Assembly: GCA_015179125.1 (NCBI GenBank)
Contig: WHVA01000005.1
Span: forward strand, 1-64,000
Source: Gautieria morchelliformis
Taxonomy: Eukaryota; Basidiomycota; Agaricomycetes; Gomphales; Gomphaceae
Direction of reading: 5' to 3'
Length of the DNA stretch: 64,000 nucleotides
Positions 10,249-60,649 of the stretch are shown in pieces; the first letter of the stretch is position 1, and each line of letters starts with the position of its first letter. The notes below the pieces were generated by a model. That model made no database searches. It was given only the letters and a program-made list of their open reading frames with translations, and was not told the DNA's origin. Made by a program: the position numbers and the translations under genes.

Positions 10249-10469
10249 TGTGGAACGAAGGAGATATAATAATCTGATATTCTACGGTCTGTACAAGAGC
10301 ATCTGTCCTTATATACTAATTATGATGTTCCTATATTACCAATCTCTTCGAGCTGCTGTGCCGATGCGATGCCGGTGCACCAGCAACCCGGGGTCGAGAG
10401 CGATCTCGAACCTCCGGCTAAATGCGTGCCGGTTCTGCCTCGGCGGTGTCATCGTCCCGATTACTAACA
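10249..10469 (-). repeat. 3' LTR of the Copia element
   Basis: 221 bp, plus-strand ends TGTGGAACGAAGG and CGATTACTAACA, so it begins TGTTAG and ends CCACA in element orientation. The last 17 codons of pol lie inside it. Related to the solo LTR at 4122-4344. Confidence 0.95.
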
Positions 10470-13400
10470 CTCCCCCTCAGCGAGAAGTTCCTTCGGCAAA
10501 ATCCTAATTTCCCTAATAGATACCTGTGTTGGTGTAAATCCAATCCCTTTGTAAATATGTCCGCTATGTTCTCCTTCGTCGGTACGTACGTAAGTGATGC
10601 CTCGTGAGAGGCCACTTTCTCACGGATGAAATGATATGCGACATTGATGTGTTTGGTACGCGCATGATACGTTGCGTCATGCGATAGTGTAATGGCGCCT
10701 AGATTGTCTGATCGAAGTGACGTGGGCTGGGTTTGATCGATTCCAAGTTCCTCAATGAAACGCCTCAGCCAGATTAATTGCTTGGCGCCCTCGGTAAGTG
10801 CCATGTATTCAGCCTCCGTGGTAGATAGCGCGATCGTTCGCTGCTTCTTCGAGCTCCATGCAATGGTTCCTCCTCCTAGTATAGCTACATAACCGCTAAT
10901 AGACAGTGCGTCGTTTCTATTAGCATAGTCCGAGTCGACAAATATTTCGAGGTCGAGACCAGCGTCTCGTCGGAAGATTATGCTGTCGTCACGTGACCCC
11001 TTGAGGTACCTGAGCGCGTGCTTGATCGCCGTCCAGTGCTCGGTTCCGTAAGTAGTAGTGAATTGGCTCAAGTGTTGTACAGTAAAAGCCAAATCAGGTC
11101 GCGTGCTGAGTGCTGCATACATTAGTGATCCGATCGCTTTGGCATAGGGTACTTCGGCAGTTGGACCTGTTGAGTCCATGGGTGTCGTGAGTTTGATCAT
11201 TTTATGCAGAGGTGTAGATACTGAATGAGCCGTTGTCATGTTGAATCGATCGAGTATGATGTCGATGTAATGTCCTTGAGACATGATCAGTGTTCCCTCA
11301 TCCCTATTCCTCTCAACTCTAATTCCCAAGATTTTCTTCATTTCTCCTAAATCTGTTAAAGGGAATTTTCCATGAAGCTCCCCCTTGAGCTTAATCATCC
11401 CTCCTTTGGAGTCAGTAAATAGTCCGAAGTCATCCACATATACTGATATGACTTCGATTGAGTCCTTATCTTGTCTGATGTAGACACATTCATCGGCTGT
11501 ACTTTGATGGAAGCCGAGATCGAGTAGTAATTTGCATAAGCGCTGATGCCAAGCTCGCCCCGATTGTTTGAGTCCGTAGAGCGCTCTGTATATTCTTAGA
11601 ACGCATCCAGATCCATCATCAAAACCGTCGGGCTGGCGCATGTAGATCTCCTCATCTATGGTTGAATTGAGGTAGGCGCCTTTGACATCCATCATTTCGA
11701 TTTCCCAATCGAGTGTGTTTGCGATCGCTAATAGAACACGTAGTGAATCGAATTTGACCACGGGTGAGGTTATCTCGTAGTAATCCATCCCTGGCCTCTG
11801 TGTGAATCCTTGAGCCACAACCCTTGCTTTAGCCTTATCGAATTGTCCGTCCGGTTGTGTTTTGACAGCGTATACCCATCGGCAACCGATAGCTACTCGT
11901 CCGGGTGGTAGTTCTGTTAACTCCCATGTTCCTAACGTCTTGTGTTGGTCCATCTCAATTTCCATCGCTTTCTCCCAGATCGGCGCATCATCACGTGATA
12001 CCGCCGCTCTGTAATTCTCAGGTTCAGTGACAATTTCTTTCGTTATGTAAACCTGCTCGGTGCGTCCTGAATTATTCAGCTTCCAGTAATCCGGTCTTTG
12101 AGTGATACGTGCGCTCCGTCGAATCTGTGGAGCTGGCGCTTGTTCAGGTGGATCAGGAACGGGCGTTGTCTGGGGTGATGACGTCTGTGGGGTAGATGTG
12201 ATCGGGTCCGGCACATGCTCGCGCGGTGAGTGCTCCCCCTCGAGCGGTGCCATGTCGTCATCGTCGTTATCTGGGATAGGGTAGAGTTTGTTGTCGTTTT
12301 CGTCGAATGTAATATTTCTTGAAATTTGAACATGTTTTGAGGCTTTATTGTAATACCTCCAGGCTTTTGCATGTTCTGCTACTCCGACGAATATATGCTC
12401 TTCTGCCTTTGGATCAAGTTTGGCTCGACGTTGATCCGGCACCATAACCCAACAATTTGTCCCGAATTCCTCTAGACGTGCTATGTTTGGCTTCTTGCCG
12501 AATAGTGCTTGGAACGGCGTTGCGTCATCTCCAAGCGCTCGCGTGGGTGATCGATTTTTGATATAACATGCGTAAGCCACGGCCTCGGGCCAGAGTATTT
12601 TTGGCAGGTTCTTGGCAAATATCATTGCCCGTGCGTGCTCGAGTAAGGTCCGGTTGAGTCGTTCGGCGATTCCATTTTGGGCTGGGGAGTATGGAGCTGT
12701 GGTCTCCATGATAATGCCATATTTTGCACAAAATTCCTTGAAATTTTTATTGACATATTCCCCTCCATTATCCGAGCGAAACCTCTTCAATTTCTGACCT
12801 GTTTGGGTCTCGAGGAATGCCTTGTACGTCTCGAAGTGTTTGAGCGCTTCATCTTTGGTGCTCCCAAAATAGATTACGGTGTACCTCGATTTGATGTCCG
12901 TGAAAGAATAAAAGTATTTCTCACGCGATGGTCCCTTGGTCTGGGCAGGTCCCCATACATTGGATACTGTTAGGTCACCGACCTGTTCTACAGTGTCCTC
13001 GGCTCTTTTGGGGAACGGCTCCACATGCCGTTTGCCTTGTATGCATGCTTTGCATTGGCTCGGCTCGGTTGATTCGTCGATCTCGAGTCCAGTAACTAGG
13101 TCGTTAGATTTCAACAATTTTATGGAGTTTATGTTGACGTGCCCTAGTATCCTGTGCCATTTGTCCCATGACCGTCCTTTTGCCGCTGCGGCAAAGTCCC
13201 GTGCCTCGACTGATCGAGTGACCCGTGCCTTCATACAGAATAGCCGCCCACGCTTCTGTCCCTGTGCGAAGGTAACTCCGGCGCGTGATTTGAATTCGAC
13301 GCCGGTGCCTGAAAATGTGGCCGTGTTGCCCTTATCAGTTAAACGCCCTACGCTGATAAGGTTGTTCGGCGCATCCGGTGCATGCTTGACGTCACGTAGT

Positions 13401-13531
13401 TCGATCGTGTTCGTCTTGGCACCGATCTTGAATTCCATGTATATAGTGCCTCGGCCTTGTGTATGTAGTACCGCACCGGGTGAAATTCCTTCGATTTCAG
13501 ATGGTTCCTCGGCATAGCTAGCGAAATCGTT
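10418..13531 (-). CDS. Copia pol part: integrase, reverse transcriptase, RNase H
   Basis: Continues the gag frame directly after the TGA at 13532-13534; the total frame 14440-10418 is 1340 codons plus stop. In order: rest of the protease; GAG-pre-integrase with the H-H-C-C finger (ILGHVN...CKACIQGK); integrase core (FTDIKSRYTVIYF, FRSDNGGEYVN, SPAQNGIAERLNRTLLEHAR); a Pro/Thr/Ser-rich linker; reverse transcriptase (ARVVAQGFTQRPGMDYYEIT, active site VYVDDFGLF); Copia-type RNase H (IFVDSDYANRND, SSKKQRTIALSTTEAEYMAL, LRSDNLGAI). All catalytic motifs that I can check are kept. First ATG in this part is at 13438, but no independent start is needed. Only the one stop codon separates it from gag. 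Confidence 0.95.
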   Translation of the reverse strand, partial: NDFASYAEEPSEIEGISPGAVLHTQGRGTIYMEFKIGAKTNTIELRDVKHAPDAPNNLISVGRLTDKGNTATFSGTGVEFKSRAGVTFAQGQKRGRLFCMKARVTRSVEARDFAAAAKGRSWDKWHRILGHVNINSIKLLKSNDLVTGLEIDESTEPSQCKACIQGKRHVEPFPKRAEDTVEQVGDLTVSNVWGPAQTKGPSREKYFYSFTDIKSRYTVIYFGSTKDEALKHFETYKAFLETQTGQKLKRFRSDNGGEYVNKNFKEFCAKYGIIMETTAPYSPAQNGIAERLNRTLLEHARAMIFAKNLPKILWPEAVAYACYIKNRSPTRALGDDATPFQALFGKKPNIARLEEFGTNCWVMVPDQRRAKLDPKAEEHIFVGVAEHAKAWRYYNKASKHVQISRNITFDENDNKLYPIPDNDDDDMAPLEGEHSPREHVPDPITSTPQTSSPQTTPVPDPPEQAPAPQIRRSARITQRPDYWKLNNSGRTEQVYITKEIVTEPENYRAAVSRDDAPIWEKAMEIEMDQHKTLGTWELTELPPGRVAIGCRWVYAVKTQPDGQFDKAKARVVAQGFTQRPGMDYYEITSPVVKFDSLRVLLAIANTLDWEIEMMDVKGAYLNSTIDEEIYMRQPDGFDDGSGCVLRIYRALYGLKQSGRAWHQRLCKLLLDLGFHQSTADECVYIRQDKDSIEVISVYVDDFGLFTDSKGGMIKLKGELHGKFPLTDLGEMKKILGIRVERNRDEGTLIMSQGHYIDIILDRFNMTTAHSVSTPLHKMIKLTTPMDSTGPTAEVPYAKAIGSLMYAALSTRPDLAFTVQHLSQFTTTYGTEHWTAIKHALRYLKGSRDDSIIFRRDAGLDLEIFVDSDYANRNDALSISGYVAILGGGTIAWSSKKQRTIALSTTEAEYMALTEGAKQLIWLRRFIEELGIDQTQPTSLRSDNLGAITLSHDATYHARTKHINVAYHFIREKVASHEASLTYVPTKENIADIFTKGLDLHQHRYLLGKLGFCRRNFSLRGSVSNRDDDTAEAEPARI
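10470..10480 (-). other. Polypurine tract of the Copia element
   Basis: On the minus strand the 11 bases directly before the 3' LTR read CTGAGGGGGAG, a purine run in the expected place for plus-strand priming of reverse transcription. It overlaps the pol coding frame. Confidence 0.8.
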
Positions 13532-14440
13532 TCAGCTTCGAGCTATATGTGTTGTTGCCGCTGAATCGGCTAGCCAGTCGGATGCAGATATAGCACTGTA
13601 TGCTACCTCCTTAGATACAAATGCGAAATCCTTTTCTTCTGCTTGTTTGACTGTTTCTTTGTTCCCTGATTTGAACCATTTTGGCGCTTGGCCTTCTTTG
13701 CTGCCACCTTTCGCCCAACAGTCCTTCACGTAATGACCCTTCTTGCCGCAATTTCGGCACTTTCCCTTTGTTGCTCCTGAGTCATCTTTCTTGGGCCTGT
13801 GACGTTGTTGCGCCTTAAGTGCCGTCTGCCGTGCCGATCCAGCTTTCCGTGCTCGATCCTCATCGAGGACCCGAGCTATTAATATATCAGCTGTTGTCCC
13901 GGCTCCACTGGCGTTTACTGCCGTAATAAACGCCAACCAAGAATCTGGTAATGACATCAGCAACGTGTTCGAGAACTCGGTGTCACTGATGTAATGCCCC
14001 CGCGCATTCAATTCCTGTTGAATGCCGCAGAGCTTGCGTAGGTGCTCCTCCATGTTCGCGCCGTCCTCGGCAAGTGTCCGGAAGAAATCTCTTCGGAGAT
14101 TTACAATTCCCACTGCTCCCTTAGATTCGAATATAGCTTGTAGACTAGTCCATACAGCAAATGCAGACATCGTCTGATTGATGTAAACTAGTTGTTCATC
14201 GGCAACTCTGAGGCAAATCTCTTTTCTAGCTTTCTTGTCCTTCCTTCTCCAATCGTCGATCTCCTGCTGCTCGGTCGCAGTGACGTTGTCGGCATCTGCC
14301 GGTCTCGGTTCCGTCTCCCTGCCAATAGCCACGTCCCACAGATCTAAGTCATCGAGTATCCACTCGAGCCGCCGGCGCCACGCCGCGTAATTATCCCCGT
14401 TCAAGGGGTCGATCTTGTACGTGTTGTTGCTACTCGACAT
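13532..14440 (-). CDS. Copia gag and start of protease, ended by premature TGA
   Basis: 302 residues from ATG 14440. Residues 1-210 are the UBN2-type capsid region of Copia elements (FEWxx-like WRRRLEWILDDLDLWDV, LRRDFFRTLAEDGANMEEHL). A CCHC zinc knuckle CRNCGKKGHYVKDC follows near residue 232, then the protease active site WLADSAATTHIARS. The TGA at 13532-13534 lies just after that motif; the expected residue there in relatives is Arg (CGA), so a C-to-T change explains it. The stop is therefore past the gag/protease border and is better read as a mutation than as a natural gag terminator. Confidence 0.93.
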   Translation of the reverse strand: MSSSNNTYKIDPLNGDNYAAWRRRLEWILDDLDLWDVAIGRETEPRPADADNVTATEQQEIDDWRRKDKKARKEICLRVADEQLVYINQTMSAFAVWTSLQAIFESKGAVGIVNLRRDFFRTLAEDGANMEEHLRKLCGIQQELNARGHYISDTEFSNTLLMSLPDSWLAFITAVNASGAGTTADILIARVLDEDRARKAGSARQTALKAQQRHRPKKDDSGATKGKCRNCGKKGHYVKDCWAKGGSKEGQAPKWFKSGNKETVKQAEEKDFAFVSKEVAYSAISASDWLADSAATTHIARS

Positions 14441-14509
14441 CGTCGATCGGTCTTGAGTTTGTTGGAGTATAGAGCGTAGTTAGATTTGTAGTAGTTTTAG
14501 TTATGCGCG

Positions 14510-30212: not shown

Positions 30213-31133
30213 GCCAAGTCCCAAATTGTCATCCCAGTCCTCAGATATGTTCAAATGTACAAGCACCGTCTGCCATCTTTTCTGTAACACTGTGTCCTAT
30301 GGAATTCATCTGTGCTGGAGCCTATTTCATGAGCCCGCGGCTAAGAAAGCTTGAGCTTCCCCACGATTAAATTATTGTGAAATTCCAAAGTACTTAAGGT
30401 TGGTATGGGTCAGATGATGACGCTCAAGTCCCGCTGGCAGCCCAAGGATGAATCCTACGTCCAAGTAGGAGACATTAACAAAAAGCACACGAAAGCTCCG
30501 GTCTGATTCTGATACTTTGGCATGATCGAGTGGATTCTGAGTCGCCCCTGAGGCTCTAGCAGCATTCGAGGAGTAGGACAAACAGAGTTTGAGCCACATT
30601 ACTTACAGCACATATGACACAGATGAATGTGCAGAAGTTATCTCACCAGTGCAGGAATTAATATCGGCCAGTTGGCAGAGCGTGTTGCAGGGCGTCGAGG
30701 CAGGGTTGTAGCGATGCGACTCCAGGGGGCCGACCAGAGAAATTAGTACCGGTTATTCAGACATGGTTCTAGGAGATGAGGAGGCCCGATCAGAGAAACA
30801 GTAAAGCAAAAGTATGAGCCAACCACCACAGCTGCTTGAGTATGCCTACGAATTTGCACCATGAAGATCCACCCGTCAAAGAAGTGCCACTGTGCAAGCT
30901 GGTGACCGGGACTCAAGTACTCAGGAATGGAACGCACCGCACATGGATGGCTCAAGGAGGGTGAACCTGAGCGAGCTCAATTACCTGACTGCAATGGCGG
31001 ATAAAAGTCACGTGTGCACTTACTTAAATTAGTAACTACTGCCTATTCGGGCAGTGATGGGACTACATGGTCTGTGCACGCCTTCTTGACGCCTGGTATA
31101 TAAGGCGGACTCCGCCCATCACAGAAGTTCTTT

Positions 31134-31372
31134 ACCACTCTGGCCTTTTGGTACGTGTACATCATGATTTGGTTACGAGACGAAACTAACGGTTACTTTG
31201 TTACAGGCTTAGATCAAGTGTAGTATCTGTTCTTTTTAGTTTAACCACTAAAATGACCGCACCGCGGTCATCATTGGTTAGCCAATTTTTGCCGCCCTCG
31301 TCCTTTGGCCTCTGCTTGCACGTCGGAGGACATGATGACCTTGCTATTGCAGTACCGGCTTGCGTCGTCAGG
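31134..31372 (+). ncRNA. U2 spliceosomal snRNA gene with an intron, left copy
   Basis: Exon 1 (31134-31150, ACCACTCTGGCCTTTTG) and exon 2 (from 31207, GCTTAGATCAAGTGTAGTAT) together rebuild the conserved U2 5' end. Exon 2 carries the branch-site recognition segment GTAGTA (31220-31225), TCTGTTCTTTTTAGTTTAA of stem II, an Sm site AATTTTTG (31284-31291), a stem III-like hairpin and the conserved stem IV loop TATTGCAGTAC. Between the exons, 31151-31206 is a 56-nt mRNA-type intron: GTACGT donor, CTAAC branch site at 31195, TTACAG acceptor. It splits the loop of stem I. TATATAA at 31097-31103 lies ~33 bp upstream of the inferred 5' end. Mature length would be about 180 nt, close to the usual 188. 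The 3' end is approximate. Confidence 0.92.
31151..31206 (+). other. mRNA-type intron within the U2 snRNA gene
   Basis: 56 nt, GTACGTG...GAAACTAACGG...TTACAG. The donor, branch site and acceptor fit the fungal consensus. Removal joins CCTTTTG to GCTTAG and restores the stem-loop I sequence GGCCTTTTGGCTTAGATC expected of U2. mRNA-type introns in U2 are known from a Rhodotorula species, so this is rare but not without precedent. Confidence 0.88.
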
Positions 31373-32109
31373 GGATTTCTCTCCTCTTCTCGTACATTTT
31401 GCTATTCTGTGACCCGGTGGTTCAGTATAACCACCGACAACAGCGCAGCAAAAGTAGAGATCAGAGTTTATTTGAATACGATAGTTACCCTTCAGCAATG
31501 CAAACACTTTGACTTGTAAATATGGATGGAGAGAAATTGATAATGTGGCAGAACACACTTGAGTAGCAATTGTTTTGCGCGGCACTGTACGCCGTGGGGC
31601 TCCTCTCTGCCACCCAGGCAAATCCTCAAAGAAGCAGAAGCGAAGACCATTTTTTGACTACCGTGTAAACACGGGGCGCATCGAATCTGCATGTGTATCG
31701 CACCTTTAGGTATACTCGCCCATCAGACAAGACTGCAAAGCAGCGAAGTTGTTTCAGGCCGCCGGTAAGTATCCCAAACACCTTGGTAGGGCAACGGGGA
31801 TGCCTGATAGTATCACGTCACGCCGCCTGGGAGAACTCCCGCATTCACGGTTATCTCATCGATTAATAGACCTACAAACTGGAAGAGCTTCGAGGCAGCA
31901 GAGGGCAGGGATGCCGCTAAGGTGGCATGCCAGTGGTACCTTCAACGAAAGGATATAGCAACGTAGGGTAAGGCGAAAATACTTACGCTTGACATCCTCG
32001 CCATACTTCCCAGCAAGGATGTCCTTACGCTCGAAAACGGGTGTGTCAAGCCTCGTCCCGCCAGCCGATGTGGGATCGATGCCATCTCTTCAACGCTCGA
32101 CCCTAGGCT

Positions 32110-51929: not shown

Positions 51930-54037
51930 TCAGAGACCTTGCCAGCTCACATCAAGACCTTCCACGATGACGAAAGGCTCACCACCAAGCCACCTGCTCA
52001 CTCTATCCAAATCTCTGTCCTGCAGTCCTTTTCCCTCATCGTCCGATACGCCCTCTACGCCTTCTGCGACCCCTAAGCATGCCCATCCAACAACCATCAT
52101 GCCAGGCGGCCTCTGCGCACCCACTCGCGGGTCAGACATAGCTTCTACTATCCCCCCTAATGTCGATCGTACTACGCGCTGGTCAGGCATCGTCCCTCGC
52201 TCAATAATACACGTCGGTAGATAGCTTGGGTATGTTTCCTCCAGCATTCCTCGCACGATCTCCGCCAGTCTCGCGACGCCCATCAGCACTAGCACGGTTG
52301 TCGCCCGCTCGTAAGAGGGTACGCGCCCGCTCTTCCCGCCCTTTCCAACGCCAGTGCATATAGCGACGCTTTCCGCCACGCCACGTGCTGTTACAGGGAT
52401 TCCGGCCGCCAGAGGTGCCGCCAGCGCGGAACTTAGTCCAGGAATGACGGTGGGGGGAAACCCGTGGGCAGTGAAGTATTCAATTTCGGACGAAGCTCGA
52501 GCATAGAGCATGGGGTCGCCTTGCTTGAGCTGGATACGAATAAGAACGTAGTATGGGCGAAAAAAAAAGGCGACGCACCCTCACAACCACTTTTCCCTGC
52601 CGTGCCCCTTCCAGAGCTGCATGCATGAGTTCTTCCTGGGCTCTGTCTGCGTTGCCAGGAAACTTGCGCGCGATTCGTAGTTCAATATCTGATGCAAGGT
52701 CATTCTTACTTTTTAGGATCAAGACGCTATACTCACGTTTGGGAATTGTGTGAAGGACTCCTTCAGGTACTAGCTTGTCGCTCAATACCAGGTCTGCAAT
52801 TCTCAAAGCACAAGAAGTTGCGAGCGTGACCAAAGATGGGTGGCCTGGGCCAGACCCCAGAAGCAAGATGCGGCCATCAGCCGCGGTGGACTGTTGTGGA
52901 GCTATCGCCGGCAAAGTATGGCGAGTTGGCGCGGATGGAATAACATCCCTGAACGATTGTGTGGACTCCCCAGCCATGATAGCCCTTGGAAGTGCTTTTG
53001 ATGTCCCGCTTAGTATGCCATCAATCCCTTCATCGTCCAAGGATGCCAACGACTCGAGCGGCCAGTACTCACTGACTTGAGCAACCCACCGCATCCGTCG
53101 CTGTGTTCTCGTCTGTGACGTCTCGTCCGACTCTAGAGCCAAGCTTGCCAAAGGCACCTGGGGCACAGGCTCGTTGGGAGTCGAGGGTAAGTTTTCACCT
53201 TCGTCTTCACGTGCCAGGTCCTCGAGTCCATTCTTTACATGACCCAACGAGTGGATTGGCATCGATCCTTCAATTCGGTGCGCTTGCTCGTCTGCTTTTG
53301 CCTTGTCACGCAACCGTCCGACATTGTCGACGGCGTTGCCAATGCCTCTGGGTAATCGCGCGATAATTTCACGGGTTATGCGAGACGACAGACGACATCC
53401 CTTCGAATTGGTCACGATACCGATCTAGGGAGGCTTGGTCAATCTTCGACACTCGAGCGAAGAACGCCCAACGGAGAAGAATCTCCACCTGCAGAGCCGT
53501 TGGTTCGCTGTTCTCAGCACTCCTAAAACGATGTGTGGCTGGGAATGAGAAGTCACATAAGGACGGCATATCCGTGGTGTTCGTTGGAATTCGGTATGTA
53601 CGACTGGCGATGTCGTACAGGCGCGATGCAGACGCCTTGGAGCGAGACGTCAGAGCAAGATTGCTCCTTGAGGTAATCATGGTGTCCGTAATGCAAACAA
53701 ATGACACGGAGGGCACTCTCGAAAGCACTGAATGCAAAGCGGCCTCATCATCGTCGATTTCTGTGGGTGGCCCAGCAGGCCAAAGCTCGGCCTCATCCTC
53801 AATTGTCCTCCATTCAAGCTGTCTCTGTTCAACTCTCCATTTCACTTCGTCGCACGCACTTTCTAACCCGCCCCGTCCAAGAAGCACGACATGAGCATCG
53901 GCTTCTAAACATGAGAATGCACGGCTTGCCGCAAGCTTGCCAGATCCTACAATGACCACGGTGCGCGAATATAGGGGAAATGAGACTATAAGTGATGCAC
54001 CCGGCGTGGGATTCGGAAAACTCGCTGGGGTCTGCAT
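51930..54037 (-). CDS. Siroheme synthase: Met8-like dehydrogenase fused to uroporphyrinogen-III methyltransferase
   Basis: Three exons, 54037-53489, 53424-52579 and 52529-51930, sum to exactly 665 codons (664 aa), with introns of 64 and 49 nt. Residues 15-200 are the NAD-dependent precorrin-2 dehydrogenase/chelatase module (RTVVIVGSGKLAASRAFSCL, SVSFVCITDTM, DFSFPATHRF, GIVTNSKGCRLSSRITREII). Residues ~370-650 are the SAM uroporphyrinogen-III C-methyltransferase: ILLLGSGPGHPSLVTLAT, LKQGDPMLYAR, PGLSSALAAPLAAGIPVTAR, TVLVLMGVARL, and PPGMMVVGWACLG. This order is the reverse module layout of yeast Met1/Met8 as separate genes, but like bacterial CysG. The product makes siroheme for sulfite and nitrite reductases. 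The right duplication arm begins ~50 bp upstream of the ATG. Convergent with the NPP gene. Confidence 0.93.
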
Positions 54038-54106
54038 AAAATCCCCTTGCTCTGCGAGGGCTCGAAAAATTTGCAGGACAAAAATCTATGGGCGCTTGTT
54101 AGCATC

Positions 54107-54419: not shown

Positions 54420-55175
54420 GGGTTGAGCGTTGAAGAGATGGCATCGATCCCACATCGATCAAGGATGTCTCCACATCGGCTGGCGGGACGAGGCTTGACA
54501 CACCCGTTTTCGAGCGTAAGGACATCCTTGCTGGGAAGTATGGCGAGGATGTCAAGCGTAAGTATTTTCGCCTTACCCTACGTTGCTATATCCTTTCGTT
54601 GAAGGTACCACTGGCATGCCACCTTAGCGGCATCCCTGCCCTCTGCTGCCTCGAAGCTCTTCCAGTTTGTAGGTCTATTAATCGATGAGATAACCGTGAA
54701 TGCGGGAGTTCTCCCAGGCGGCGTGACGTGATACTATCAGGCATCCCCGTTGCCCTACCAAGGTGTTTGGGATACTTACCGGCGGCCTGAAACAACTTCG
54801 CTGCTTTGCAGTCTTGTCTGATGGGCGAGTATACCTAAAGGTGCGATACACATGCAGATTCGATGCGCCCCGTGTTTACACGGTAGTCAAAAAATGATGT
54901 CTTCGCTTCTGCTTCTTTGAGGATTTGCCTGGGTGGCAGAGAGGAGCCCCACGGCGTACAGTGCCGCGCAAAACAATTGCTACCCAAGTGTGTTCTGCCA
55001 CATTATCAATTTCTCTCCATCCATATTTACAAGCCAAAGTGTTTGCATTGCTGAAGGGTAAACTATCGTATTCAAATAAACTCTGATCTCTACTTTTGCT
55101 GCGCTGTTGTCGGTGGTTATACTGAACCACCGGGTCACAGAATAGCAAAATGTACGAGAAGAGGAGAGAAATCCC

Positions 55176-55413
55176 CTGACGACGCAAGCCGGTACTGCAA
55201 TAGCAAGGTCATCATGTCCTCCGACGTGCAAGCAGAGGTCAAAGGACGAGGGCGGCAAAAATTGGCTAACCAATGATGACCGCGGTGCGGTCATTTTAGT
55301 GGTTAAACTAAAAAGAACAGATACTACACTTGATCTAAGCCTGTAACAAAGTGACCGTTAGTTTCGTCTCGTAACCAAATCATGATGTACACGTACCAAA
55401 AGGCCAGAGTGGT
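55176..55413 (-). ncRNA. U2 spliceosomal snRNA gene with an intron, right copy
   Basis: Exon 1 55413-55397, intron 55396-55341 (56 nt, same GTACGT/CTAAC/ACAG signals), exon 2 from 55340. Compared with the left copy I see only one change in exon 2 (TTTGGCCTC to TTTGACCTC, in the stem III region). GTAGTA, the Sm site AATTTTTG and the TATTGCAGTAC loop are intact. TATATAA lies at 55444-55450 on the minus strand at the same distance upstream. Probably functional. Confidence 0.92.
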
Positions 55414-56463
55414 AAAGAACTTCTGTGATGGGCGGAGTCCGCCTTATATACCAGGCGTCAAGAAGGCGTGCACAGACCATGTCATCCCATCACTGCCCGA
55501 ATAGGCAGTAGTTACTAATTTAAGTAAGTGCACACGTGACTTTTATCCGCCATTGCAGTCAGGTAATTGAGCTCGCTCAGGTTCACCCTCCTTGAGCCAT
55601 CCATGTGCGGTGCGTTCCATTCCTGAGTACTTGAGTCCCGGTCACCAGCTTGCACAGTGGCACTTCTTTGACGGGTGAATCTTCATGGTACAAATTCGTA
55701 GGCATACTCAAGCAGCTGTGGTGGTTGGCTCATACTTTTGCTTTACTGTTTCTCTGATCGGGCCTCCTCATCTCCAAGAACCATTTCTGAATATAACACT
55801 GATTCCTCTGGTCGGCCCCCTGGAGTCGTATCGCTACAACCCTACCCCGACGCCATGCAACACGCTCTGCCAACTGACCATCAGGGTATACTAGTTCCTG
55901 TCACCCTTTTGGCTGTGTTTCGCACTGTACCGGCAATAAAGTAATCTGTTATGACAGGTTGGGCGATAGTTGACAGTCGACTCTGCTTGCTGGTCTCTGG
56001 TTGGAGTGATATTAATTCCTGCACTGGTGAAATAACTTCTGAACATCCATCGACATCTCTGTGTGATCTGTGCTGTAAGTAATGTTGCTCAAACTACGTT
56101 TGTACTAACTACCCCTTGAATGCTGCTAGAGCCTCAGGGACGACTCAGAATCCAGCCATGTCAAAGTATCAGACCGGAGCTTTCGTGTGCTTTTTGTTAA
56201 TGTCTCCTACTTGGACGTAGTATTCATCCTTGGGCTGCAAGTGAGACTTGAGCGTCACCATTCGATCAATACCAACCTTACATCAGTACTTTGGAATTTC
56301 ACAATAATTTAATCGTGGCGAAGCTCAAGCTTTCTTAGCCGCATATTCATGAAACAGGCTCCGACACGGATGAATTCCATAGGAGTGCTACAGACAAGAT
56401 AGGAGACGGTGCTTGTGCACTTGAACATATCTGAGGACTGGGACGACAATTTGGAACATTAAC

Positions 56464-59331: not shown

Positions 59332-59852
59332 ATTCCGCGCAATTCTGTGCATAGTCATATCCGGGCCGGGGTATGACCATGGGCGAACGTGTCGGTTCTG
59401 ACCAGAGGCACATGTTCCCGGGTAAAAGGTGCTTTCGGCTTCGTACTTCAGTGAACTCGGGAGGGAAGTGGTCAAATGAAGTCCAATGTCATTCGAGAAG
59501 TGCCTTTCCATTTCCCCAGCCTTGTTGGATACTAGGTACGGTTTTAGTCACCAAACGTTTTTCCTGATGTTACTCGGACATCAAATCGATATCAACAGCA
59601 GTAGTGTACTCATACTGACCTCGATATCTGACAGATCATAGAACACAGCGATGTTCTTTCAAATACAATACTACATCAACACGCAATCGTGAATCCCGAT
59701 CATGACAAACTCGAAAAGCCTTCGAAGCTCTAGTCCAATGAAAATATATCCTTCTGAGAGACGTCTCCTTGCTTCAGATATTTGCTAGGCTATTGTAGCT
59801 GTTCAAGAACAGAATACTCAAGCGACAGCAAAATAGTGAAGAAAAGGATTCC

Positions 59853-60090
59853 CCTGACGACACAAGCCAGTGGTGCAATAGCAAGGTCACCATGTTCCCC
59901 CGACATGCAAGCAGAGGTCAAAGGACGGGGGCGGCAAAACTGGCTAACTAATGATGGCCGCGTGCGACCATTTTAGTGGTTAAACTAAAAAGAACAGATA
60001 CTACACTTGATCTAAGCCTGTAAGAAAAGGTAAGCTTGTGCAAGAGTGTAAATGAGGCTACTAGCTACTCACCAGGGAGGCCAGAGTGGC
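59853..60090 (-). pseudogene. Third, diverged U2 snRNA copy with its own intron
   Basis: Exon 1 (60090-60073, CCACTCTGGCCTCCCTG), intron 60072-60018 (55 nt, GTGAGT...TTACAG, a sequence unrelated to the intron of the other two copies) and exon 2 from 60017 (GCTTAGATCAAGTGTAGTAT). The GTAGTA segment is kept, but the Sm site reads AGTTTTG, the stem IV loop is TATTGCACCAC instead of TATTGCAGTAC, and no TATA box lies at the usual distance. Likely a pseudogene or variant; a functional role is not excluded. Confidence 0.7.
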
Positions 60091-60097
60091 TGACAGG

Positions 60098-60157
60098 GTA
60101 GGTCCAGCTTGTGTCAGGTAGGTCCAGCTTGTGTCAGGTAGGTCCAGCTTGTGTCAG
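60098..60157. repeat. 20-bp direct repeat, three copies
   Basis: GTAGGTCCAGCTTGTGTCAG is present three times head to tail without change, immediately upstream of the third U2 copy, where the other copies have their promoter. Confidence 0.95.
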
Positions 60158-60649
60158 TTCAGAAATCAGCTGCCAATGGATCAGACATCCAGACACGTGA
60201 CCTAGCCTCCCGCGAACCCTGTGAGTCCTGACCGATGACGTATAAAAACTTCGAAGCACTGCGTTCTCGCTCTCGCCTCCATCTCGAGCTTCAACGTTAC
60301 TGGCATCTAGCCTTGCGTCACTTGGGCACTTGGGTTGAAAGCCTCGCTCGTCGTCTCGGAATAAATCAGCTGGAATACTAGTTACTCACTGCTCTCGTCA
60401 GGCTCACCAGGACCGTCGAACTAGTTGCACTGGTTGATCTCCTAAGCGGTCACCTGAGCTCTGCGTTGGTTGCACTGTTACTTCACCCAAGTTCTTTCTT
60501 TCTCCCCAGACCGCTGTTCCCACTGGTGTGGCGAGCATTCGACGTGACTTTCTTTCTTCCTTGAAGTCGTACTTTTGAGATCTCTTGCGTGAGGCTTCCA
60601 TTTGATGTCACTACGGCTAGCTGACAGATAGTTGCCTCATTTTTAGGCC

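Follow-up and report, generated by a model that had tools for sequence, protein, structure and literature searches.

The window, a stretch of 64,000 nucleotides of DNA from Gautieria morchelliformis (Gomphales, Agaricomycetes, a basidiomycete), holds three U2 snRNA genes, here called U2a, U2b and U2c (Table 1). In U2a, exon 1 carries the U2 5' end, the helix II strand and the 5' arm and loop of stem-loop I; exon 2 carries the helix Ib GCU, the GTAGTA stretch for branch-site recognition, the Sm site and stems II-IV. The Rfam U2 model (RF00004) matches 31189-31376 at 98.6 bits, with a gathering score of 46. Because the model is blind to the intron, it took intron letters for the 5' end of U2 and misplaced that end, an error that a standard covariance model can make with a gene of this sort. 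The first-pass annotation had proposed a U2 gene with an mRNA-type intron at this locus, and this is borne out on a larger scale than claimed, as 20 of 20 copies carry the intron, three of them in the window, two of which the annotation had overlooked. Its 56-nt insert, starting GTACGT and ending ACAG, is confirmed at 31151-31206; the CTAAC that it put 12 nt before the end lies there only if the final ACAG is left out, the full distance to the intron end being 16 nt. U2b lies about 24 kb from U2a and, together with its flanks, nearly repeats it in inverted orientation (97.6% over 1033 aligned positions). U2c is probably a decayed or variant copy, and neither a TATA-like box nor a GCGCC element was found in its promoter region.

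Table 1 Coordinates of the U2 genes in the window and of their parts.
Feature	Positions	Strand	Remarks
TATA-like element GTATATAAGG of U2a	31096-31105	+	TATATA starts 35 nt 5' of TTACC
U2a, whole gene	31132-31376	+	copy C559a
U2a exon 1, TTACCACTCTGGCCTTTTG	31132-31150	+	putative 5' end, +/- 2 nt
U2a intron, 56 nt	31151-31206	+	GTACGT...CTAAC (31186-31190)...TTACAG
U2a exon 2, begins GCTTAGATCAAGTGTAGTAT	31207-31376	+	RF00004, 98.6 bits
U2b, whole gene	55171-55415	-	split at the U2a site
U2b exon 1	55397-55415	-	sequence reading
U2b intron, 56 nt	55341-55396	-	one base differs from the U2a intron
U2b exon 2	55171-55340	-	RF00004 match 55171-55355
U2c, whole gene	59848-60089	-	split at the U2a site
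U2c exon 1, loop diverged (CCACTCTGGCCTCCCTG)	60073-60089	-	sequence reading
U2c intron, 55 nt, own sequence group	60018-60072	-	GTGAGT...CTTAC...TTACAG
U2c exon 2, body diverged, Sm site altered	59848-60017	-	RF00004 match 59848-60031, 93.9 bits

We searched the whole Gautieria morchelliformis assembly (122,073,039 bases in 1113 contigs; all match counts are lower bounds) for further U2 genes. RF00004 gave 20 matches, every one above 46 bits (67.2-100), with three inside the window. An exact 19-mer from the U2 core returned the same 20 sites, with none added at one or two mismatches and 12 at three (9 for the reversed control). The intron occupies the same insertion site in all 20 U2 bodies of the assembly, and the acceptor falls at one same place, being CAG followed by GCTTAGATC in 19 copies and CAG followed by GGTTAGATC in C873. 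The signature of the site is GGCCTTTTG, then GT...AG, then GCTTAGATC, and the joined form would read ...CTTTTG followed directly by GCTTAGATC. The sequence TTACCACTCTGGCCTTTTGG precedes the U2 bodies in 16 exact instances and in one with a single mismatch (C384a); exon 1 of C559c is more diverged and brings the copies with a short intron to 18 in total. Six further matches to exon 1, two at two mismatches and four at three (two overall for the reversed control), are probably due to chance, and no intron donor followed any of the three that were inspected.

An intronless U2 elsewhere in the genome, the outcome that the first-pass annotation had set against its own reading, was looked for across the assembly with the model, the core 19-mer and a 20-mer spanning the spliced junction. 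None was found, since the junction 20-mer, at up to three mismatches, gave only four sites, every one at three (control 4), and one of these is the acceptor in C318, which carries the intron. A junction with at least four changes would elude the 20-mer, but one would expect the 20 cores to include the body that goes with it. Copies have flanks in common, as seen for C427 and C1096 (99.7% over 1198 positions), so the U2 genes appear to have multiplied, intron included, at the DNA level and not by retroposition. Some of the copy pairs may be alleles.

The introns are short in 18 copies (44-56 nt) and about 6 kb long in the other two. All 18 short introns run from GT to AG with R at +3 and G at +5, their donors being GTACGT, GTACGC, GTATGT or GTGAGT, and a YTRAY branch motif is present in 17 of them. 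We used a tighter grammar, GTRNGY...YTRAY...YAG over 44-60 nt with the branch 6-16 nt before YAG, and a wider one in which the branch lies 2-16 nt before YAG. It was found that 15 of the 18 short introns fit the former, at 1.1e-4 per base in Markov-random sequence, and 17 of the 18 the latter, at a chance rate of 1.8e-4 per base; the intron of C559c fits neither, with TTTAC and CTTAC as its only branch-like motifs. Such a fit proves little by itself, because the tighter grammar also matches 17 strings in the window, 10 on one strand and 7 on the other; the proof of an intron lies in the place of the insert and in its return in all 20 genes. Minor, U12-type introns have an RTATCCTTT-like donor, and no donor of this type occurs among the short U2 introns. 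A U2-type, mRNA-type spliceosomal intron within U2 is well supported by these features. For comparison, three coding introns of a gene near 51930-54085 on the minus strand were placed by means of the annotated protein: two have 48 nt (GTGAGT...CAG) and 49 nt (GTGCGT...CAG), and the third coding gap starts GTGGAG, unlike the U2 introns. A protein query taken from 52483-53424 on the minus strand has as its best match a G. morchelliformis protein named tetrapyrrole methylase (93% identity over 91% of the query).

The 18 short-intron copies fall into seven intron groups, which allowed identity to be averaged over 131 between-group pairs, with gaps counted as differences. Mean identity is 0.921 for exon 1, 0.973 for nt 1-60 of exon 2 and 0.874 for nt 60-165, as against 0.404 (range 0.222-0.705) for the intron without its ends, 0.327 for the 5' flank and 0.401 for the 3' flank. 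The intron has therefore diverged like the flanking DNA, while exon 1 has not. These numbers also bear on the reading that the insert is never spliced and is retained in mature U2 as an expansion segment. This is hardly credible, as no short intron among the 18 has lost GT or AG and 17 of 18 retain YTRAY while length and inner sequence vary, and two of the three coding introns near 51930-54085 look alike.

The place of the intron within U2 was examined by way of the U6 pairing. Exon 1 contains CCACTCTGG, an exact 9-nt complement of CCAGAGTGG in U6, in 18 of 18 copies, and CCAGAGTGG sits near the 3' end of both U6 matches found in the genome. The longest complement to U6 within the introns is 7 nt. 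As controls, 230 of 20000 shuffles of exon 1 attained 9 nt, and so did 86 of 20000 21-mers drawn at random from the window, where any that contained the motif itself had been passed over (0.4-1.2%). In human spliceosomes, U2 nucleotides 3-11 and U6 nucleotides 88-95 form helix II (excerpt of PMC5354520), and the U6 complement of exon 1 falls where this helix would be expected. The 5' end of U2 itself is putatively near TTACCACTC.

Uninterrupted U2 sequence for alignment came from an exact 24-mer of the U2 core, which elsewhere occurs in no stretch of viral contigs and in four stretches of genome contigs (five sites) from records labelled bacterial; these are probably eukaryotic contaminants. 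Three of the five sites are informative (L043, L044 and L046), and all three run uninterrupted across the insertion site, with no intron. On L045, which together with L046 makes up pieces of a single contig, the plus-strand sequence begins past the junction and the minus-strand sequence is not a U2 5' end. By-eye alignment to the U2 of L043 places the Gautieria intron between G19 and G20 in human numbering. According to the available excerpts, a C14-G19 pair closes the loop of U2 stem-loop I (PMC5354520), and G20C21U22 is juxtaposed to the AGC triad of U6, poised for helix Ib (PMC13332222). Given the G19/G20 site and this facing of the triplet to U6, the alignment puts the intron end directly before the triplet predicted to pair with the catalytic AGC. 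With the intron placed there, one can test whether the active site is where snRNA introns originate, through reverse splicing.

Among U2, U4, U5 and U6 of the Gautieria genome, an interruption is seen in U2 alone. U6 gave two matches, each spanning the entire model uninterrupted, with 115 nt for its 105 positions, the two being identical over 122 nt with differing flanks; U5 gave two whole-model matches, and U4 gave 11, nine of them above the cut-off. In searches of the assembly run without a positive control, U1 had no match to its model at E 0.001 or at E 10, and U12 and U6atac had no model matches. Rfam also gave no U1 at the 11 exact sites of a 12-mer from the U1 5' end, and U1 is possibly diverged or interrupted. 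As U1 did not turn up and the genome counts are only minimum values, the assembly or the models may be incomplete. As a separate observation, snRNA gene dosage is uneven, with 20 U2 bodies against two U6 and two U5 matches, to which alleles kept apart in the assembly may contribute in part.

The integrity of the copies was assessed element by element. In 14 of the 18 short-intron copies a TATA-like box precedes TTACC by 32-35 nt, the Sm site AATTTTTG is present in 16 (altered in C559c and C634b), and the 33-nt stretch around GTAGTA is intact in 17, with C873 retaining GTAGTA and differing after it. In C384b and C634b, 11 nt are missing around the stem-IV loop. Taken together, 13 copies have the TATA-like box, GCGCC or ACGCC, the Sm site, the branch-recognition stretch and the stem-IV loop, and C559a (31132-31376) passes all element tests; C559c, C196, C384b, C634b and C873 each fail at least one functional element. 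These data allow us to weigh the proposal that all 20 U2 genes are relics and that the expressed U2 comes from an intronless gene absent from the assembly. The 1113 contigs, the counts being lower bounds, the missing U1 and the five copies lacking one or more elements would all agree with it. However, the other 13 hold every promoter and body element tested, U4, U5 and U6 were found in the same assembly, and exon 1 (0.92) and nt 1-60 of exon 2 (0.97) have been kept despite flanks at 0.33-0.40, which would not be the case in relics. We regard wholesale decay as very unlikely.

Viewed as a whole, the observations are best explained by 31132-31376 being a real U2 gene with an ordinary U2-type spliceosomal intron that is removed in trans, and from the sequence we consider this highly probable. 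A pre-U2 would be transcribed from the TATA-type promoter, and spliceosomes in which U2 is already present would excise its intron in trans. The 19-20-nt exon 1 would in this way be joined to exon 2, giving a normal contiguous 5' domain made up of the helix II strand, stem-loop I and the helix Ib/Ia strand. Self-splicing of pre-U2 in cis through its own GTAGTA was set aside by reasoning, because the start of exon 2 would have to be the 3' exon and the catalytic core simultaneously.

The effect of joining on stem-loop I was assessed with minimum-energy folds of the 5' domain, which comprised exon 1 from TTACC onward and 28 nt of exon 2. When joined, stem I forms in 18 of 18 copies, with five of the six tested junction-crossing pairs in 17 copies and three in C873. 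When unjoined, C559a, C559b and C563 retain five stem-I pairs and C873 retains three, while the other 14 copies have no stem-I pairs across the intron. The claim in the first-pass annotation that stem-loop I cannot form before splicing is hence too strong, as four of the 18 unspliced 5' domains keep stem-I pairs. Full-length folds were computed for six copies. In the joined form, stem-I pairs reach 0.13-0.94 in five of these and 0.01 in C559c, and stem I competes with other pairings even after splicing; in the unjoined form they stand at 0.00-0.01, apart from a loop-closing pair internal to exon 1 (0.01-0.91). For C559a, the full-length values are 0.00-0.04 unspliced and about 0.15-0.28 spliced. 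Splicing is thus predicted to favour stem-loop I, yet a naked-RNA fold is no proof of this, because the C559a pairs are low unspliced and reach only about 0.15-0.28 when spliced.

These folds bear directly on how strictly U2 maturation depends on splicing. In a leaky arrangement, unspliced pre-U2 would be partly functional, and splicing would improve U2 without being strictly needed. Partial function is plausible because the intron lies next to the loop of stem-loop I and the helix I strand, the branch-recognition stretch, the Sm site and stems II-IV, that is everything from GCU onward, lie within exon 2, and the four unspliced 5' domains that keep stem-I pairs include that of C559a. Against this, the remaining 14 unspliced folds keep none, the C559a pairs all but vanish in the full-length unspliced RNA, and GT and AG are intact in 18 of 18 copies despite drift of the inner intron, which argues that removal matters. 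We judge a leaky arrangement to be nearly as probable as not; it is compatible with trans-splicing of an ordinary intron as set out above and weakens the idea of a closed loop.

A U2-type spliceosome requires U2 at the branch site. As all copies found carry the intron, U2 is apparently needed to make U2, and on the sequence evidence the maturation of U2 very probably requires a spliceosome that contains U2. If all known U2 copies depend on the spliceosome in this manner, they represent a natural case of a machine needed for its own core part. The strict form of this dependence would have no functional U2 gene free of splicing and no activity in unspliced pre-U2, so that each U2 is matured by an earlier one. 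Strict self-propagation is a possibility to which we give rather less than even weight. If true, U2 would be inherited via the cytoplasm and spores, and the genome alone could not restart it; judging by the divergence of the introns and flanks of the copies, such a state would also be old. The intron further makes it possible to test whether pre-U2 is able to bootstrap itself and how far stem-loop I tolerates an insertion.

The first-pass annotation had read the closed loop as autoregulation. If the intron is spliced, U2 maturation is indeed U2-dependent, as a role of the intron in controlling the U2 level would call for. This dependence is, however, positive feedback that has no set point by itself, and it is not regulation because, when precursor is supplied at a constant rate, supply and decay alone fix the level. 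If s is the supply and g the decay of precursor, k the splicing and d the decay of U2, reasoning on a one-step scheme gives a steady state of U = s/d - g/k. Between groups, moreover, the inner introns are only 0.40 alike, and no regulatory element emerged from the tests made here. Autoregulation is unsupported on these grounds, and we think it improbable that the intron serves this end.

Rhodotorula hasegawae belongs to the Pucciniomycotina, whereas Gautieria is a member of the Agaricomycetes. An mRNA-type intron interrupts the U2 gene of R. hasegawae (Takahashi et al. 1993, Mol Cell Biol 13:5613; cited in PMC2586383), and going by the title of that paper alone, the two are alike in being basidiomycete U2 genes with a spliceosomal intron. 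Introns are also found in fungal U6 snRNA genes (Canzler et al. 2016, as cited in an excerpt of PMC5832005); those of S. pombe lie near nucleotides of the catalytic core, and reverse splicing has been proposed as their origin (excerpt of PMC10484740). Gautieria U2 resembles these U6 genes as described there, with a spliceosomal intron in a spliceosomal RNA near catalytic nucleotides, and differs from them in that another RNA is concerned and the U6 of Gautieria itself is intronless. The reasoning put forward for the U6 introns would fit U2 here: by analogy, reverse splicing may have put the intron into U2 close to the active site, a more tentative step of our account, which would explain the place of the intron.

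Fungal U3 snoRNA genes provide a further parallel. Their mRNA-type introns lie in the 5'-most stem-loop, have recurrent positions and are widespread in Basidiomycota (excerpt of PMC5832005). In both U3 and Gautieria U2 an mRNA-type intron thus interrupts the 5'-most stem-loop of a structured RNA. There is no self-dependence in the case of U3, because U3 acts in rRNA processing. According to the same excerpt, U3 paralogues within a species may differ in the presence of the intron, whereas the 20 Gautieria U2 copies do not. No U2 intron of an Agaricomycete was found in the literature searched, which covered few subscription papers. As far as these searches go, the lineage, the presence in 20 of 20 copies, the pattern of divergence and a LINE within two of the introns are new; the same holds for the place of the intron relative to the catalytic triplet, with the R. 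hasegawae gene known by title alone.

The two long introns belong to C1045 (35-5960), with 5926 nt, and C1097 (3531-9711), with 6181 nt (loci L021, L022, L075, L077, L108, L109 and L116). In both, exon 1 and the start of the intron lie upstream of the U2 core on the same contig and strand. The possibility that these two U2 genes are truncated copies which have lost exon 1 was rejected, as exon 1 lies 5926 and 6181 nt upstream. Both introns hold an antisense LINE, with domains above Pfam cut-offs for RNase H in C1097 and for reverse transcriptase and endonuclease in C1045, where the LINE frame is broken by stops and the pieces were scanned separately. A 15-nt target-site duplication, CAAGTTAAGCGAAGA, flanks the LINE (left end in C1097, right end in C1045). 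The exon 1 sequences concerned are among five more exon 1 sites with one mismatch (TATTGG; TATTG as against TTTTG elsewhere), each with an exon 1 that leads into the beginning of a group-3 intron, followed by a (GA)n run and other DNA. The promoter is visible at the sites on C292, C952 and C1097, and the C845 and C1045 sequences start 15 nt before the motif. A single LINE insertion followed by duplication is likely, because the left-end pieces of the five sites are 92-99% alike. The remaining three sites, C292:150440, C845:16 and C952:23873 (L104, L106 and L107), show exon 1, the intron start and LINE-side sequence. The core 19-mer search found no U2 core on contigs C292, C845 and C952, and these sites are either orphan 5' halves or assembly gaps.

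Two minor observations concern the window itself. Around U2c (59720-60240, minus strand), tandem repeats of about 20 bp (ACCTACCTGACACAAGCTGG) occupy the place of the promoter, and the hairpin past the branch-recognition stretch, read by eye, shows paired changes relative to U2a. At 10418-14479 on the minus strand, frames resembling those of a Copia-like retrotransposon, judged from their translations alone, comprise a gag-like frame at 13532-14479 and a pol-like frame at 10418-13531.
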